Translations under genes and position numbers: made by a program
Source of the DNA: Flavobacteriales bacterium
GTDB lineage: Bacteria; Bacteroidota; Bacteroidia; Flavobacteriales_E; Vicingaceae
Direction: 5' to 3'
DNA: 64,000 bases
Assembly: GCA_020853105.1 (NCBI GenBank)
Contig: JADYZM010000077.1
Coordinates: 62,001-126,000 of the forward strand
Shown here: in pieces, positions 172 through 6,282 of the stretch
Position numbering within the stretch: the stretch's first letter is position 1
How the letters are laid out: every line of letters starts with the position of its first letter
The notes under the pieces: generated by a model
What the model was told of the DNA's origin: nothing
Seen by the model: only the letters and a program-made list of their open reading frames with translations
Database searches by the model: none

Positions 172-366
172 AAAAAATGAAAATTTATTTTGATAGTTCG
201 TTTTTTTTTTTTTTGTCGGCGAAACGAGATAATTTATCTAAACATAAATAATCTGTATTCGGTAGATAAAATATTTAGTAACTAAAAAAAAAATAAAATG
301 AAAAAAGTAAATTTAATAATTGGAATTTTTTTAATGGTATTGCTAGGTTCTTGTACTAAAGAAAAA
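172..366 (+). repeat. Direct repeat copy 1: upstream region plus signal-peptide coding segment, near-identical to 2296..2487
   Basis: Both copies share ...tgaaaatttattttgatagttcgT(n)gtcggcgaaacgagataatttatctaaacataaataatctgtattcggtagataaa... through MKKVNLIIGIFLMVL-GSCTKE. Confidence 0.95.
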
Positions 367-750
367 ACAGAGCCAATTGTCGGAAATGAGAACAACAGTG
401 GTAATTCGTTAATTACAAACCCTGTAGAATTATTAAAGAAAGGAGACTATGAGCTTTATTGTAATGTTCAAACAAGCAGAGATTATGTTAATTTTGTGGG
501 TGGTGTGATGAGGCAAGATTGTATTGATAATTATAAGGTTAGTCCGATGTGTTGTATGACAGGCTCTTTGTGCTATATTATTGTTGAAGCAGATGGACCA
601 GAAGATGAAAGGAATTCAAATGATATGAGATTAATATATCAAAACTCTAGCACAAGAAAAATAGAAAGATTTAAAGGGTTTGGAGATAAACTCGTTATAA
701 ATAATGGTCAAGTGTTAGATGGTGATTTTATTATCAGTGAACAATATTAA
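298..750 (+). CDS. Small Cys-containing lipoprotein (cassette 1, gene A)
   Basis: Lipobox LLGSC; 5 further Cys in the mature part; N-terminus nearly identical to 2420..2812. Confidence 0.8.
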   Translation: MKKVNLIIGIFLMVLLGSCTKEKTEPIVGNENNSGNSLITNPVELLKKGDYELYCNVQTSRDYVNFVGGVMRQDCIDNYKVSPMCCMTGSLCYIIVEADGPEDERNSNDMRLIYQNSSTRKIERFKGFGDKLVINNGQVLDGDFIISEQY

Positions 751-1888
751 ATTAATTTGTCTAGTTGTACTTCTATTTTTTTGTAGTTGTATAAATAAGA
801 CTAATAAATGCGTAGGAATTTGTGAATTAAGAACAGTTGTAGTTGATGAAACTGATTTATTAATTGAAAGACAGCCATATAGCGTATCAATATTAAATGA
901 TTCTATTGCATGTTTAATTGTGAATGATCAACAGTTGGTATTATATAATATAAATACTGGTATCCCATGTAAAATAATTGATTCGACGAGCATAGATTTA
1001 TCGAAATTTCGTTCAGAGTTAATCAAGGAAAAACAAAAATATTTTAAAGAGAATGACTACAACTATTTATCTGATAAAGAAGTGGAAGATTATAATAGTG
1101 CTGCGTTACCTAAGTATTTGTTTCACTCCCTAATAATTCAAGATAGTACTCCTTTTTTATTAGCCTCTGTTTTCACGCCATATATTAAAAGGAATAAAGA
1201 TACTCTTGATTTTGTTTACTCCGAATCAACATTTTATATTGTTGAATTTGATAAAGAATTCAATAGTAAAAGAAATATTATTGAATCACTAGTCCCTCAT
1301 CATCTAACTGATTTCAAAAAGCCATTTTCCTGGCTATTTCAAGGGTTTATTGTAGATGATTCATTAGTATATACCAATGTTAATTCGGAGGGAAGGGTAG
1401 AAGATTATAACAACAGTTTATCAGCAGTTTACAAAATAACTCCTAATGGGTTAAAATTCAAAGCGTTTTTGGATATTAAACGTTCAGAAAAGCTTTCAGA
1501 AAAGTATCAAAATTATATTTCAGAAAGTACTCCAACCCCATATTTGAAGAAAGGAAATAAATTTTTCGTATCAAATGGGAGTCATTTGTTCGAATTGATA
1601 ACAGGTAAACGAATAGCCAATAACTTATTGTCTGATGAAGAAGATAAAATCATAATAAATTTTGATTTTTCGATAAACAAAAAATATATGCTTTATAGTT
1701 GTTACGATACAGTTAAAAATAAAATTTTTGCTGTTGTTTATGATTTATCTTTAGATAAAATAGTTGAAAAAAAAGAATTTGAAAAGTACACTAAAATTGC
1801 ATTTTTTCAGAATAATATGGTCTGTTTAGAATTTAATGATAAAAATGAAGAATATAGGTTTAATACTTATCGTATGTGTGACAATTAA
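737..1888 (+). CDS. Lipoprotein, putative beta-propeller-like (cassette 1, gene B)
   Basis: In-frame GTG at 737 gives VNNIKLICLVVLLFFCSC lipoprotein signal; overlaps end of gene A. Confidence 0.7.
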   Translation: MNNIKLICLVVLLFFCSCINKTNKCVGICELRTVVVDETDLLIERQPYSVSILNDSIACLIVNDQQLVLYNINTGIPCKIIDSTSIDLSKFRSELIKEKQKYFKENDYNYLSDKEVEDYNSAALPKYLFHSLIIQDSTPFLLASVFTPYIKRNKDTLDFVYSESTFYIVEFDKEFNSKRNIIESLVPHHLTDFKKPFSWLFQGFIVDDSLVYTNVNSEGRVEDYNNSLSAVYKITPNGLKFKAFLDIKRSEKLSEKYQNYISESTPTPYLKKGNKFFVSNGSHLFELITGKRIANNLLSDEEDKIIINFDFSINKKYMLYSCYDTVKNKIFAVVYDLSLDKIVEKKEFEKYTKIAFFQNNMVCLEFNDKNEEYRFNTYRMCDN

Positions 1889-2276
1889 TAGTTGTTCAAG
1901 GACAAGGAGTTCAGAATTGCATCATGTTTTGGAGGTTGATAATTCAAATGAAATTATTATTGTTAGTATTAATGCATTTGATTGTATTTCTTGCTTCGGT
2001 ACAATAAACATTGAATTGAAGAAAGCTTTTAAAAAATATCTGATACCTAGCCAAAACAGATTTCTGTATATCTATAACACAAGAAAAAAAGCTCAACGAA
2101 ATTTTTTAGATAATTACGTGAAATTAGATAGTAGTTTTAAGTTTATTCATCTTAATGATGAGAATATTATAAAGCAAATTGAAGTTGTAACAAAAGGCAA
2201 TAATAACCAAGAGTCACGTTATTTTATAATTGATAAAACGAATAAAGTTAAAGTTGAAAAAAGATTTAAACCTTAA
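1845..2276 (+). CDS. Small lipoprotein with CxxC motif, possibly thioredoxin-like (cassette 1, gene C)
   Basis: MKNIGLILIVCVTINSC signal; VSINAFDCISCFGTI motif; overlaps end of gene B. Confidence 0.6.
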   Translation: MKNIGLILIVCVTINSCSRTRSSELHHVLEVDNSNEIIIVSINAFDCISCFGTINIELKKAFKKYLIPSQNRFLYIYNTRKKAQRNFLDNYVKLDSSFKFIHLNDENIIKQIEVVTKGNNNQESRYFIIDKTNKVKVEKRFKP

Positions 2277-2295
2277 CCGAACTGAATTTTAATTG

Positions 2296-2487
2296 AAAAA
2301 ATGAAAATTTATTTTGATAGTTCGTTTTTTTTTTTTTGTCGGCGAAACGAGATAATTTATCTAAACATAAATAATCTGTATTCGGTAGATAAATAAATTT
2401 AGTAACAAAAAAAAATAAAATGAAAAAAGTAAATTTAATAATTGGAATTTTTTTAATGGTATTGATAGGCTCTTGTACTAAAGAAAA
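2296..2487 (+). repeat. Direct repeat copy 2 of 172..366
   Basis: Direct visual alignment with copy 1; poly-T tract is 13 T here and 14 T in copy 1. Confidence 0.95.
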
Positions 2488-2812
2488 TATTGAACCATCT
2501 TATGAAAATAAAAGTAGTAATACCCATAGGATAATTCAAAATAATCCAGACACAATTAATGAGGCTAGGAAAGGTCAAATAGCTTGTAGTGTATATGATA
2601 GTTATGGAACTATTGTATGTGCTGGAGTTAGGTGTGGTACTCCTAGAGGTGATTGTGGAAGGAAATTTACCGAGTGTGAATGTGTATCGCGAGTAATTTC
2701 AATAGAAAATAAAATGTCAAATATTGATTTTAAAAATTTTCAAAAGTTATGGAATTCTGAAAATGAAAGGGAAAAACTTAAAATAAAAGGTTATTTTTCA
2801 AAGGATATATAG
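2420..2812 (+). CDS. Small Cys-rich lipoprotein (cassette 2, gene A')
   Basis: MKKVNLIIGIFLMVLIGSC leader; 6 Cys in mature region; paralog leader of 298..750. Confidence 0.8.
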   Translation: MKKVNLIIGIFLMVLIGSCTKENIEPSYENKSSNTHRIIQNNPDTINEARKGQIACSVYDSYGTIVCAGVRCGTPRGDCGRKFTECECVSRVISIENKMSNIDFKNFQKLWNSENEREKLKIKGYFSKDI

Positions 2813-3891
2813 TGAAAAGATGGAAATACATATTTATATGGCTTATTGTTGGGGATATATTTTTTTTTACTAACTGTACACTTCCGGAAAATAAAAATAA
2901 TCTAAATCTTTTGGTTGTTGAAAACGATACAGTTTCAATCATTAATGTTGATACATTTAAGTTTTCAAGTATCAATAAATTTCACCAACCCTATGGGTCT
3001 CGAAATATTTATTTCATGAATGAAAAAAAATTAGATTTTTTCAAACTCAACACATCGAATTATACACTTGATTATTTATTTAGATTATCTGATAAGCAGG
3101 AATTTATAAGTTTCATTGTTGATGAAAATACAAAAAAACTACACCTGGTTGGCGATAAATATATTTATACATATAATTTTTATGGAATCCAGGAGTCAAC
3201 TATTAAAATCCCAAATTATAATGGGTTTTTAACTGTTCTTAATCAAAATTTTTCACCCTTATTAAAAGAAAAATGTTGGTATTTTCATTATTTTCCTGAT
3301 ATAGAAGATACATATAAATCTTCAGTTTTTTTTACCAAACCAATTGAAGCAATATACAATCATAGTTCACAAGAAATTAACTTAATTAACTTGAGTTATC
3401 CTGAGAGTTATTCTAGTCATTGTTATGGATATAATTTTGCTCCAGATAGGATTAATATAAATTCATCATTACATGGGTATTGCTTCCCACAAAGTGACTC
3501 AATTTATTTATATGATCTTAATACAAAAAAAAGCACAGTTAAGTATTTTGGTTCTAATAGAAATAAGAGTTTTTATTTCATTAAGTTTGATGAAATCAAC
3601 AAAATAAACAATAGTTTGTTTGACGAAATGTATAAAAAAAGTTCATCTTATTTTTTCTCTAACTACGCCCCTTTATCAAAGAAATTTTATAGATATTATT
3701 TTCAAGGTAACAAAAGTGATACATCTACAAAAATAAAACCATCTTATTTGGTAGCATATAATAATGATTTAGAATATATCGGAGAAACTTCAGATTCATT
3801 CAATTCTGGAATAATATTTGACTCTGAAGATGGATTAATAGCATTATCTCTCAATAAATCTAAACTATATATTATAAAATTTAAATGGTAA
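2812..3891 (+). CDS. Lipoprotein, putative six-bladed propeller-like (cassette 2, gene B')
   Basis: GTG start overlapping the TAG stop of A' (TAGTG); lipoprotein signal IFFFTNC. Confidence 0.7.
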   Translation: MKRWKYIFIWLIVGDIFFFTNCTLPENKNNLNLLVVENDTVSIINVDTFKFSSINKFHQPYGSRNIYFMNEKKLDFFKLNTSNYTLDYLFRLSDKQEFISFIVDENTKKLHLVGDKYIYTYNFYGIQESTIKIPNYNGFLTVLNQNFSPLLKEKCWYFHYFPDIEDTYKSSVFFTKPIEAIYNHSSQEINLINLSYPESYSSHCYGYNFAPDRININSSLHGYCFPQSDSIYLYDLNTKKSTVKYFGSNRNKSFYFIKFDEINKINNSLFDEMYKKSSSYFFSNYAPLSKKFYRYYFQGNKSDTSTKIKPSYLVAYNNDLEYIGETSDSFNSGIIFDSEDGLIALSLNKSKLYIIKFKW

Positions 3892-4373
3892 TTAAAAATT
3901 TATTATTAATATTTGTAATTGCTCATTTTATTTCTTGTGAATTAAATCACGAGAAAAATAATACTATTAATAATATCGAATTTGATAGTAAATATTATTA
4001 TATCGAAGATATTTCAAAAAGAGTAGATAATTTTTTACTTCAAAATACTGAGTATAGTTCAATTTCTGACTTCATAATTTTTTCAAGTAACAACTATTCG
4101 AGTTGCGCCATTGAAAATTTTAGTACATTAAGTAAATATTTTGAGAAAACAAATCGTAAAACACTTGTCTTATTCAGTGATAGTAATCTTTTCAATTATA
4201 AAATTGCAAATGAAAACGTAATTTTTATCCAAAAGCCAATGCAATTTTTTATAAAAGCTAAGATAGTACATTCTACTCCATATTTATATGTTAGGGAAAA
4301 AGAAAAATTAATTTCTCAAGAAATGAATTCTTATATTATAGATTCCTTAATAAAACACAGTGATAATCAATAA
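3885..4373 (+). CDS. Small lipoprotein (cassette 2, gene C')
   Basis: MVIKNLLLIFVIAHFISC signal; overlaps B' end; FIIFSSNNYSSC resembles the C motif but with SSC instead of CxxC. Confidence 0.6.
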   Translation: MVIKNLLLIFVIAHFISCELNHEKNNTINNIEFDSKYYYIEDISKRVDNFLLQNTEYSSISDFIIFSSNNYSSCAIENFSTLSKYFEKTNRKTLVLFSDSNLFNYKIANENVIFIQKPMQFFIKAKIVHSTPYLYVREKEKLISQEMNSYIIDSLIKHSDNQ

Positions 4374-5317
4374 CCCTTCCCTCTGTAATTTTCTTCCTCA
4401 TCGTCATTATACATACTCAGATAATTGTTGTATCTGAATTCTGCAATATTGCCTTCAGCAACTGCTTTTTTTACAGCACATTTGGGTTCGTTGATGTGTT
4501 GGCAATTATTGAAATGACAATGATTTAAAACAGCTCTCATTTCTATAAAGTAATGTGATAAATCAGATTTTTCAAAATCAATTAATCCAAAAGCTTTTAC
4601 TCCAGGCGTATCAATCAGATATCCTCCCAAATTCAATTCATGCATTTCAGCAAATGTAGTAGTGTGTTTGCCTTGCTCATAAACTTCTGAAATTTTGCTG
4701 GTTTTAATATCTAACATCGGTTCAATTGTATTTAAAAGCGTTGATTTGCCAGCTCCTGAATGTCCGACAACTACTGAAGTTTTGTTTTTTAAAACGGAAC
4801 GAACTTCGTCAAGATTTAATTCTGTTGTTGCAGAAACTGAAATGCAACGATAACCGATTTTTGAATAAATTGACGAAAGATATTCTAATTTTTGTTGAGA
4901 TTTAGAACTGTATATATCAAGTTTATTAAAAACAATTACAACGGGTATATGATAAGCCTCAGCAGTTACAATAAAACGGTCGATAAAACCTGTTGATGTT
5001 TCAGGCTGCTCAATGGTAACTAATAACAATGCTTGGTCGATATTAGCAGCAATAATATGTGAATGTTTAGAAAGATTAATAGACTTTCGGATAATATAAT
5101 TTTTTCTTTCACCAAGTTTTGAAATCACAAAATTTTCATTCTCTTTCTCTAAGAAAACATTGTCGCCAACTGCAATTGGGTTAGTTGTTCTAATTCCTAT
5201 TGTTCTAAATTTTCCTTTTATTCTGGCATCAACAATGTCATTCGATTCGAGCTTAACCCGATACCAACTTCCTGTCGATTTTACTACAATACCTTGCATT
5301 TTTTGTAAAAAAACCAA
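4367..5317 (-). CDS. rsgA: Ribosome small subunit-dependent GTPase A
   Basis: Circularly permuted GTPase motifs (NKLD, GHSGAGKSTLLN, DTPG) and zinc-binding C-terminal CHFNNCQHINEPKCAV. Confidence 0.95.
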   Translation of the reverse strand: MVFLQKMQGIVVKSTGSWYRVKLESNDIVDARIKGKFRTIGIRTTNPIAVGDNVFLEKENENFVISKLGERKNYIIRKSINLSKHSHIIAANIDQALLLVTIEQPETSTGFIDRFIVTAEAYHIPVVIVFNKLDIYSSKSQQKLEYLSSIYSKIGYRCISVSATTELNLDEVRSVLKNKTSVVVGHSGAGKSTLLNTIEPMLDIKTSKISEVYEQGKHTTTFAEMHELNLGGYLIDTPGVKAFGLIDFEKSDLSHYFIEMRAVLNHCHFNNCQHINEPKCAVKKAVAEGNIAEFRYNNYLSMYNDDEEENYRGKGY

Positions 5318-5379
5318 AGGTAAAGAATTATTATGCTTTAAGTTAAAATCTTTAGTTTTGTAAACTATTCGAGTAAAAT

Positions 5380-6282
5380 ATGAGTATCGAGGTTACAAAT
5401 GTTACAAAAATGTATGGCAATCAAAAAGCCATTGATAATGTTTCATTTATGATTGAGCCAGGACAAATAGTTGGATTTCTAGGTCCAAATGGTGCAGGAA
5501 AATCAACGATGATGAAAATTATTACTTGTTTTATCCCTCAAACATTCGGCGAGGTTAAAGTCTGTGGATTTGATGTAACTGACAATCCTATAGAAGTGAA
5601 AAAAATGGTTGGATATTTACCCGAGCACAATCCACTATATCTCGACATGTACATAAAAGAGTATCTCGATTTTACTGCAGGAGTATATAAAGTACAAAAA
5701 AGAAAGCAAAGGATTGATGAAATAATAGATACTGTTGGGTTGACTGCCGAAAAAAACAAAAAAATAGGAGCTCTATCAAAAGGCTATCGTCAACGAGTTG
5801 GATTGGCTCAAGCACTAATTCATGACCCTCAAGTATTAATATTAGATGAGCCAACTACAGGATTAGATCCAAATCAAATTGAAGAAATAAGAAATTTGAT
5901 AAAAAAAATAGGAAAAGAAAAAACCATAATGCTTTCAACCCATATCATGCAGGAAGTTGAAGCTATTTGCAACAAAACAATAATAATCAATAAAGGTAAA
6001 ATTGTTGCAAACGATACCACATCTGAGCTGCAAAATCTAGGAAAAGATACTATAACTCTACTACTAGAATTTGATAAGGAAATCTCAAAATTGGAGCTTG
6101 AGAAAATCAACGGAATATTAAAAGCAGCAGGTAAAACACCAACCATTTGGTATGTTGAAATAGAATCAGATTCCGTTAGAAATAATATCTTTCAATTTGC
6201 TTTAGAAAACAAGCTTACCGTTTTAACCATCCAAAAAGAAACACAAAGCATTGAAAATGTGTTCAAAAAATTAACCAAATAA
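5380..6282 (+). CDS. gldA: Gliding motility-associated ABC transporter ATP-binding subunit GldA
   Basis: Walker A GPNGAGKST, LSKGYRQRVGLAQAL signature, LILDEPT; overall GldA-like. Confidence 0.85.
   Translation: MSIEVTNVTKMYGNQKAIDNVSFMIEPGQIVGFLGPNGAGKSTMMKIITCFIPQTFGEVKVCGFDVTDNPIEVKKMVGYLPEHNPLYLDMYIKEYLDFTAGVYKVQKRKQRIDEIIDTVGLTAEKNKKIGALSKGYRQRVGLAQALIHDPQVLILDEPTTGLDPNQIEEIRNLIKKIGKEKTIMLSTHIMQEVEAICNKTIIINKGKIVANDTTSELQNLGKDTITLLLEFDKEISKLELEKINGILKAAGKTPTIWYVEIESDSVRNNIFQFALENKLTVLTIQKETQSIENVFKKLTK

Follow-up and report, generated by a model that had tools for sequence, protein, structure and literature searches.

A tandem pair of three-gene lipoprotein cassettes that looks like a variant of NVEALA/DUF4221 loci

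In Bacteroidetes, genes for small cysteine-bearing exported proteins of the NVEALA family (PF14055) are found paired with genes for DUF4221-type lipoproteins (PF13970), which follow them. Both are named families of unknown function, and the literature we searched, which lacks many subscription journals, yielded no paper on either. Here we analyzed a stretch of 64,000 nucleotides (the window) from a Flavobacteriales bacterium (assembly GCA_020853105.1, contig JADYZM010000077.1, positions 62,001 to 126,000), in which six plus-strand open reading frames (ORFs) lie in the order A-B-C and then A'-B'-C' between metH and rsgA. An initial annotation had described two consecutive cassettes of the same gene order, with lipoprotein signals on all six products and each gene beginning at, or within, the 3' end of its predecessor; the six ORFs were confirmed, as were such starts for the B and C genes of both cassettes. 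The trio looks like an undescribed surface-protein system that is a variant of NVEALA/DUF4221 loci, and no description of the trio, of its export-signal-like feature or of its co-variation was found in the same literature.

As in the NVEALA/DUF4221 pairs, a small cysteine-bearing exported protein is followed by a lipoprotein that is, for B', of remote DUF4221 type; both kinds of locus were retrieved by one B profile, to which B' is itself linked, and one B relative from the same search set adjoins a true Pfam NVEALA gene. The A proteins of the window differ from the NVEALA peptides in being lipoproteins of 130-150 rather than 60-90 residues, with a lipobox leader and no PF14055 match in a Pfam scan, and the window loci carry a C gene, which four of five loci with a short A lack. 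The initial proposal of a lipoprotein-anchored NVEALA/propeller variant with a redox partner is thus supported by the profile link of B', by the NVEALA-adjoining relative and by the CxxC motif of the C family. To the NVEALA/DUF4221 theme the trio adds a redox gene, an export-like signal confined to A, a cysteine motif and evolution as a set, so that two families of unknown function become a testable system with respect to binding partners, the action of C on A and the destination of A. BF3164/TolB-like propeller lipoproteins (PF15869) are likewise lipoproteins of similar size with an NVEALA context, but the whole genome contains no match to that family at E <= 1. In locus L113 (reoriented), an NVEALA gene, a DUF4221 gene, a second NVEALA-like gene and a gene for a lipoprotein of about 347 residues follow one another at 2493-5621 as tandem pairs, an example from the more familiar form of such loci.

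Two cassettes and their shared 5' block

Both cassettes begin with the near-identical leader of about 190 bp noticed in the initial annotation (E 4e-85; Table 1), which covers the upstream region, a 5' untranslated region (UTR) with a modest hairpin, the signal peptide, the lipobox and the residues C-T-K-E. Sequence identity ceases two bases past the glutamate codon of C-T-K-E. Beyond this point A and A' are almost dissimilar, as had been stated together with their cysteine counts, and their BLASTP match is mostly leader, while neither B and B' nor C and C' gave a BLASTP match above noise. Because of this, only the 5' block can be regarded as duplicated, and duplication of the entire three-gene cassette, as initially proposed, was rejected. 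With the block shared and the rest unalike, the locus is therefore composed of two different cassettes of one kind with a single 5' module.

Across the genome itself and 60 relatives the block is present at these two places only; the other matches are AT-rich stretches of 22-112 bp with E >= 2e-8. A scan of genome contigs with A returned one match, limited to the signal peptide, in an unrelated phosphatase-like gene. The 5' UTR hairpin has fold z-scores of -2.3 and -2.7, which are weak and come from two near-identical copies only, and an Rfam search of the hairpin region gave no match. We suggest that the 194-bp block could serve as a constant module of promoter, signal peptide, lipobox and export signal, and that recombination would have placed different sets of mature A, B and C downstream of it. 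A constant leader with swapped cargo suggests a route by which displayed proteins diversify.

Recurrence of the trio and co-variation of its genes

Relatives were sought by B similarity alone, except for the first cassette, which was found by its chromosomal place (the rsgA site), so that, this cassette excepted, neighboring A and C genes constitute independent evidence. Relatives of B and B' are all but absent from the nearest 199 genomes. When the rsgA sites of other genomes of the family were read, a cassette of the same shape was present in G017 only; other genes occupy the site in the remaining genomes, and the chromosomal site is therefore not conserved. The B gene of G017 led to relatives in G005 and G004, with a small lipoprotein gene upstream and a gene for a GCxxCN protein downstream, a three-row B profile extended the set to G036, and a four-row profile brought in a large number of further B genes, from other families of the class. 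Three-row profiles linked the A leaders only, and deeper profiles were required.

An A gene upstream and a C gene downstream of B were found in G017, G005, G004, G036 (two cassettes), G157, G224 and G382, as well as in G122, G264, G126, G153, G231 and G268. In all, 16 cassettes with a long A, whose sequences look unrelated, were collected from 14 genomes of Bacteroidia; 12 genera and 8 families are represented. C is present in 15/15 of those whose contig extends far enough, and in the remaining one (L121) the contig ends within what looks like the beginning of a C gene; at loci with a short, NVEALA-like A, by comparison, C occurs in 1/5 (Fisher p=0.001). The coupling of B and C is tight, the two genes overlapping in nearly all cassettes. 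The A genes of the window are thus not stray paralogs, a doubt raised at the outset, as conserved neighbors exist in other genomes.

The second cassette has a counterpart for each of its genes in another family (locus L131 in G231). The full-length homolog of B' was found at E 1.6e-31 in the search (28% identity, E 3e-34 pairwise), the homolog of A' is 30% identical (E 2e-19) with six mature cysteines in both proteins, and that of C' is 20% identical (E 0.002) and reads CVPC at the position of YSSC in C'. B of the first cassette has a distant relative in G268 (locus L132; the first 70 residues match at a BLASTP E of 3e-8, with 22% identity over full length), and this relative sits between the gene for a cysteine-bearing lipoprotein and a thioredoxin-like gene with DCLNC.

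Two candidates from these searches were not retained: an opposite-strand ORF of L105 considered as a C gene, which is antisense to the real C gene, and a match of L026 to B' (E 9e-4), which is a DUF5074 propeller without A or C neighbors. Locus L107 contains two tandem, closely similar B genes within one cassette (3475-4755 and 4715-5947). In L115 the B gene (2893-4012) is broken by an apparent frameshift beside an intact C, representing either decay or an assembly error.

To compare the histories of the three genes, similarity scores of the mature proteins from 16 cassettes (15 with a long and one with a short A) were correlated by permutation (Mantel test), which yielded 0.56 for A-B, 0.57 for B-C and 0.54 for A-C (p=0.0005 each). 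For all three of its proteins, cassette 2 has its closest counterpart in L131 rather than among the five other cassettes from its own family. L055 likewise lies closest to cassettes from other families, so that shared species history is not a full explanation. Transfer of whole trios would fit, as would old variants that were unevenly kept.

These results bear on the possibility that two unrelated, lineage-specific lipoprotein sets lie side by side by chance, with a local repeat of the promoter-signal block. The absence of recognizable paralogy between B and B' and between C and C' agrees with it, as does the near absence of relatives of B and B' in the nearest 199 genomes, but the same gene order in 8 families, the homologous A'-B'-C' trio in another family, the constant presence of C behind a long A and the Mantel result make it very improbable, and we strongly disfavor it.

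Features of the A, B and C proteins

The motif C-x5-[DNS]-C occurs in 12/16 long A proteins, where 0.33 would be expected, a contrast whose nominal probability is overstated, as the motif came to light by inspection and some of the aligned proteins are related. The simple A proteins mostly contain just two cysteines, seven residues apart. A lysine stands at position +3 after the lipobox cysteine in 16/16 long A proteins, compared with 1/24 B and 0/18 C proteins and with 9/36 other lipoproteins of the same loci. In Capnocytophaga, the signal C-X-K-(D/E)2 suffices for delivery of a lipoprotein to the cell surface (PMC5080379), and a related signal in Bacteroides additionally directs loading into vesicles (PMC6222051). 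A and A' read C-T-K-E-K and C-T-K-E-N, respectively, with the lysine at +3 and the glutamate at +4 present and the second acidic residue absent. Judging from these leaders, A is likely displayed on the surface, with B and C remaining on the periplasmic side. The diversifying surface system envisaged initially gains from the lysine in every long A and from the three-gene co-variation; its function stays conjectural. 

Small helix-turn-helix genes (XRE-type by eye) lie near or adjoin A in three cassettes (L042 4959-5336, plus strand; L055 648-1010, minus strand; L112 1528-1770, minus strand) and may encode a possible regulator. In L042, on the minus strand, the interval separating A (4371-4835) from B (3150-4313) contains AAGAAGGGAGTTAAAACTCCCTTCTTTTTTT, a terminator-like hairpin and run of T downstream of A, which would raise the abundance of A over B and C.

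A constant leader with a replaced mature part, tandem different cassettes, overlapping genes, patchy distribution and cognate co-variation are also what would be expected of polymorphic surface-lipoprotein antagonism or kin recognition, with A as a variable effector acting from the surface or from vesicles and B (or B with C) as cognate immunity or accessory. The SitBAI system of myxobacteria has a conserved lipobox leader, unrelated C-terminal mature parts, a linked cognate immunity gene and several cassettes per genome (PMC5562445). We consider such a role unlikely here, as the A proteins are small and share a cysteine motif, unlike unrelated toxin tips, and as SitBAI has neither a thioredoxin-like gene nor a propeller. 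Moreover, Pfam, NCBIfam and PADLOC provided no match of the window proteins to a SitA-type toxin or immunity domain, including SUKH-type immunity, and a plasmid search with two B proteins gave no match.

The profile of B relatives comprises 21 members. The Pfam DUF4221 cut-off is exceeded by six: B of L121, from the same family (52.3 bits against a gathering threshold of 23.4), and those of L113, L110, L109, L119 and L117. B and B' themselves have no Pfam DUF4221 (PF13970) match even at E<=5. The B'/L131 pair aligns with the 21-member profile over 335 columns (hhalign 97.8%, E 7e-13), and the same profile, compared with solved structures, matches the DUF4221 protein 3s9j at E 2e-49 and, weakly, the NHL propeller 6d69 (E 5e-4) and other propellers. 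By profile homology over its full length, B' is a remote DUF4221 relative.

The C family alignment contains 18 proteins with a common lipobox cysteine, and CxxC is found at the usual place in 16/18. C carries DCISC; in C', as initially read, the equivalent YSSC has lost the first cysteine, and a second C protein without one active-site cysteine is that of L116 (CPGT). Compared with solved structures, the family profile matches a thioredoxin oxidoreductase (8t4c, E 9e-4) and DsbC (4fyb, E 0.004), although C alone has no Pfam thioredoxin or PDB match. The C proteins are assigned to a thioredoxin-like family on the basis of the family profile and CxxC, with C' the exception for CxxC. What sets them apart from the thioredoxin-like and Dsb oxidoreductases known so far is their small size, their lipoprotein nature and their genetic linkage to a single pair of partners.

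The adjacency of a cysteine-bearing A and a CxxC thioredoxin-like protein could also reflect metal or cofactor handling, in which A would act as a thiol metallochaperone on the surface or in the periplasm, C would reduce its cysteines in the manner of TlpA and B would be a substrate-binding propeller; propellers can bind ligands. This appears quite improbable, considering the pair of cysteines to which most simple A proteins are limited, the lack of a conserved histidine or methionine among those seen and of a metal transporter or sensor noticed among the listed neighbors, and a fast diversification that is unusual for a metal site.

Proposed mechanism and layout of the locus

The explanation we favor is that the locus contains two distinct versions of an operon type that is widespread, encoding a surface-displayed A whose disulfides are handled by C and which has B as its partner on the periplasmic side; we assign this whole explanation a joint probability of about 0.5. 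A would be exported by Sec and lipidated, C would oxidize or isomerize its disulfide of the C-x5-[DNS]-C type in the periplasm, and B would bind its own A as a specific partner, be it for folding, as a receptor or as a safeguard. From there A might be flipped outward, onto the cell surface or into vesicles, to serve as a variable ligand. In cassette 2 the altered C' might act by mixed-disulfide holding, or the step might be lost. The anatomy of the cassettes is well supported, while the mechanism is one that we infer.

A number of points weigh against this explanation. Contacts among A, B and C are inferred. The motifs of the A proteins were spotted after the fact among partly related rows, A of cassette 1 is without the C-x5-[DNS]-C spacing, an aspartate or glutamate stands at +4 in only 11/16 long A proteins, and the export signal C-x-K-(D/E) that C-T-K-E resembles was defined in other genera. 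The similarity of C' to C of L131 is weak taken alone. While the propeller-type assignment made initially for both B proteins agrees with the position of B' in the DUF4221-containing profile, B has no detectable link to that profile, and a single-sequence AlphaFold model of B' is too poor to use (predicted local distance difference test (pLDDT) 35). The CxxC redox partner proposed at the outset is supported for the C family by its nearest solved structures, but C', without its first active-site cysteine, cannot act as a standard dithiol enzyme. For C, the b-a-b-a-b-b-b order was seen in a low-confidence single-sequence AlphaFold model (pLDDT 45), and the GTPases that Foldseek returned for this model are meaningless and were disregarded.

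A broader reading, which is possible though distinctly tentative, would see across the class a hitherto undescribed system of hypervariable surface lipoproteins, each with its own propeller-type partner and disulfide catalyst, whose constant promoter-signal-export leader is reused by recombination to carry new cargo and which serve cell-cell recognition or antagonism.

Table 1. Coordinates of the features of the locus within the window.
Feature	Position	Strand	Description
metH	upstream of cassettes	minus	
Shared 5' block, copy 1	172-365	plus	upstream region, 5' UTR, A codons 1-22
Possible 5' UTR hairpin in shared block	215-267 (copy 1; also in copy 2)	plus	fold z-scores in text
A	298-750	plus	150-residue lipoprotein; C-T-K-E after lipobox; 5 further Cys
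B	737-1888 (GTG start 737, or ATG 719)	plus	lipoprotein of about 383 residues; distant relative in L132
C	1845-2276	plus	143-residue lipoprotein; DCISC at 1983-1994; thioredoxin-like family
Shared 5' block, copy 2	2296-2487	plus	96% identity to copy 1
A'	2420-2812	plus	130-residue lipoprotein; 6 Cys past the lipobox Cys, including CGTPRGDC; homolog in L131
B'	2812 (GTG)-3891	plus	359-residue lipoprotein; remote DUF4221 type; homolog in L131
C'	3885-4373	plus	162-residue lipoprotein of the C family; YSSC at 4095-4106 replaces CxxC
rsgA	4367-5317	minus	

Scans of the window proteins against Pfam, NCBIfam and PADLOC gave nothing over the cut-offs, B, B' and C had no match in the PDB by phmmer, and B had none among viral contigs. 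A lipobox-type cysteine closes all six N-termini, the least typical being that of B (FCSC). The cassettes are AT-rich, with a GC content of about 23-29% compared with 29-38% in the flanks.

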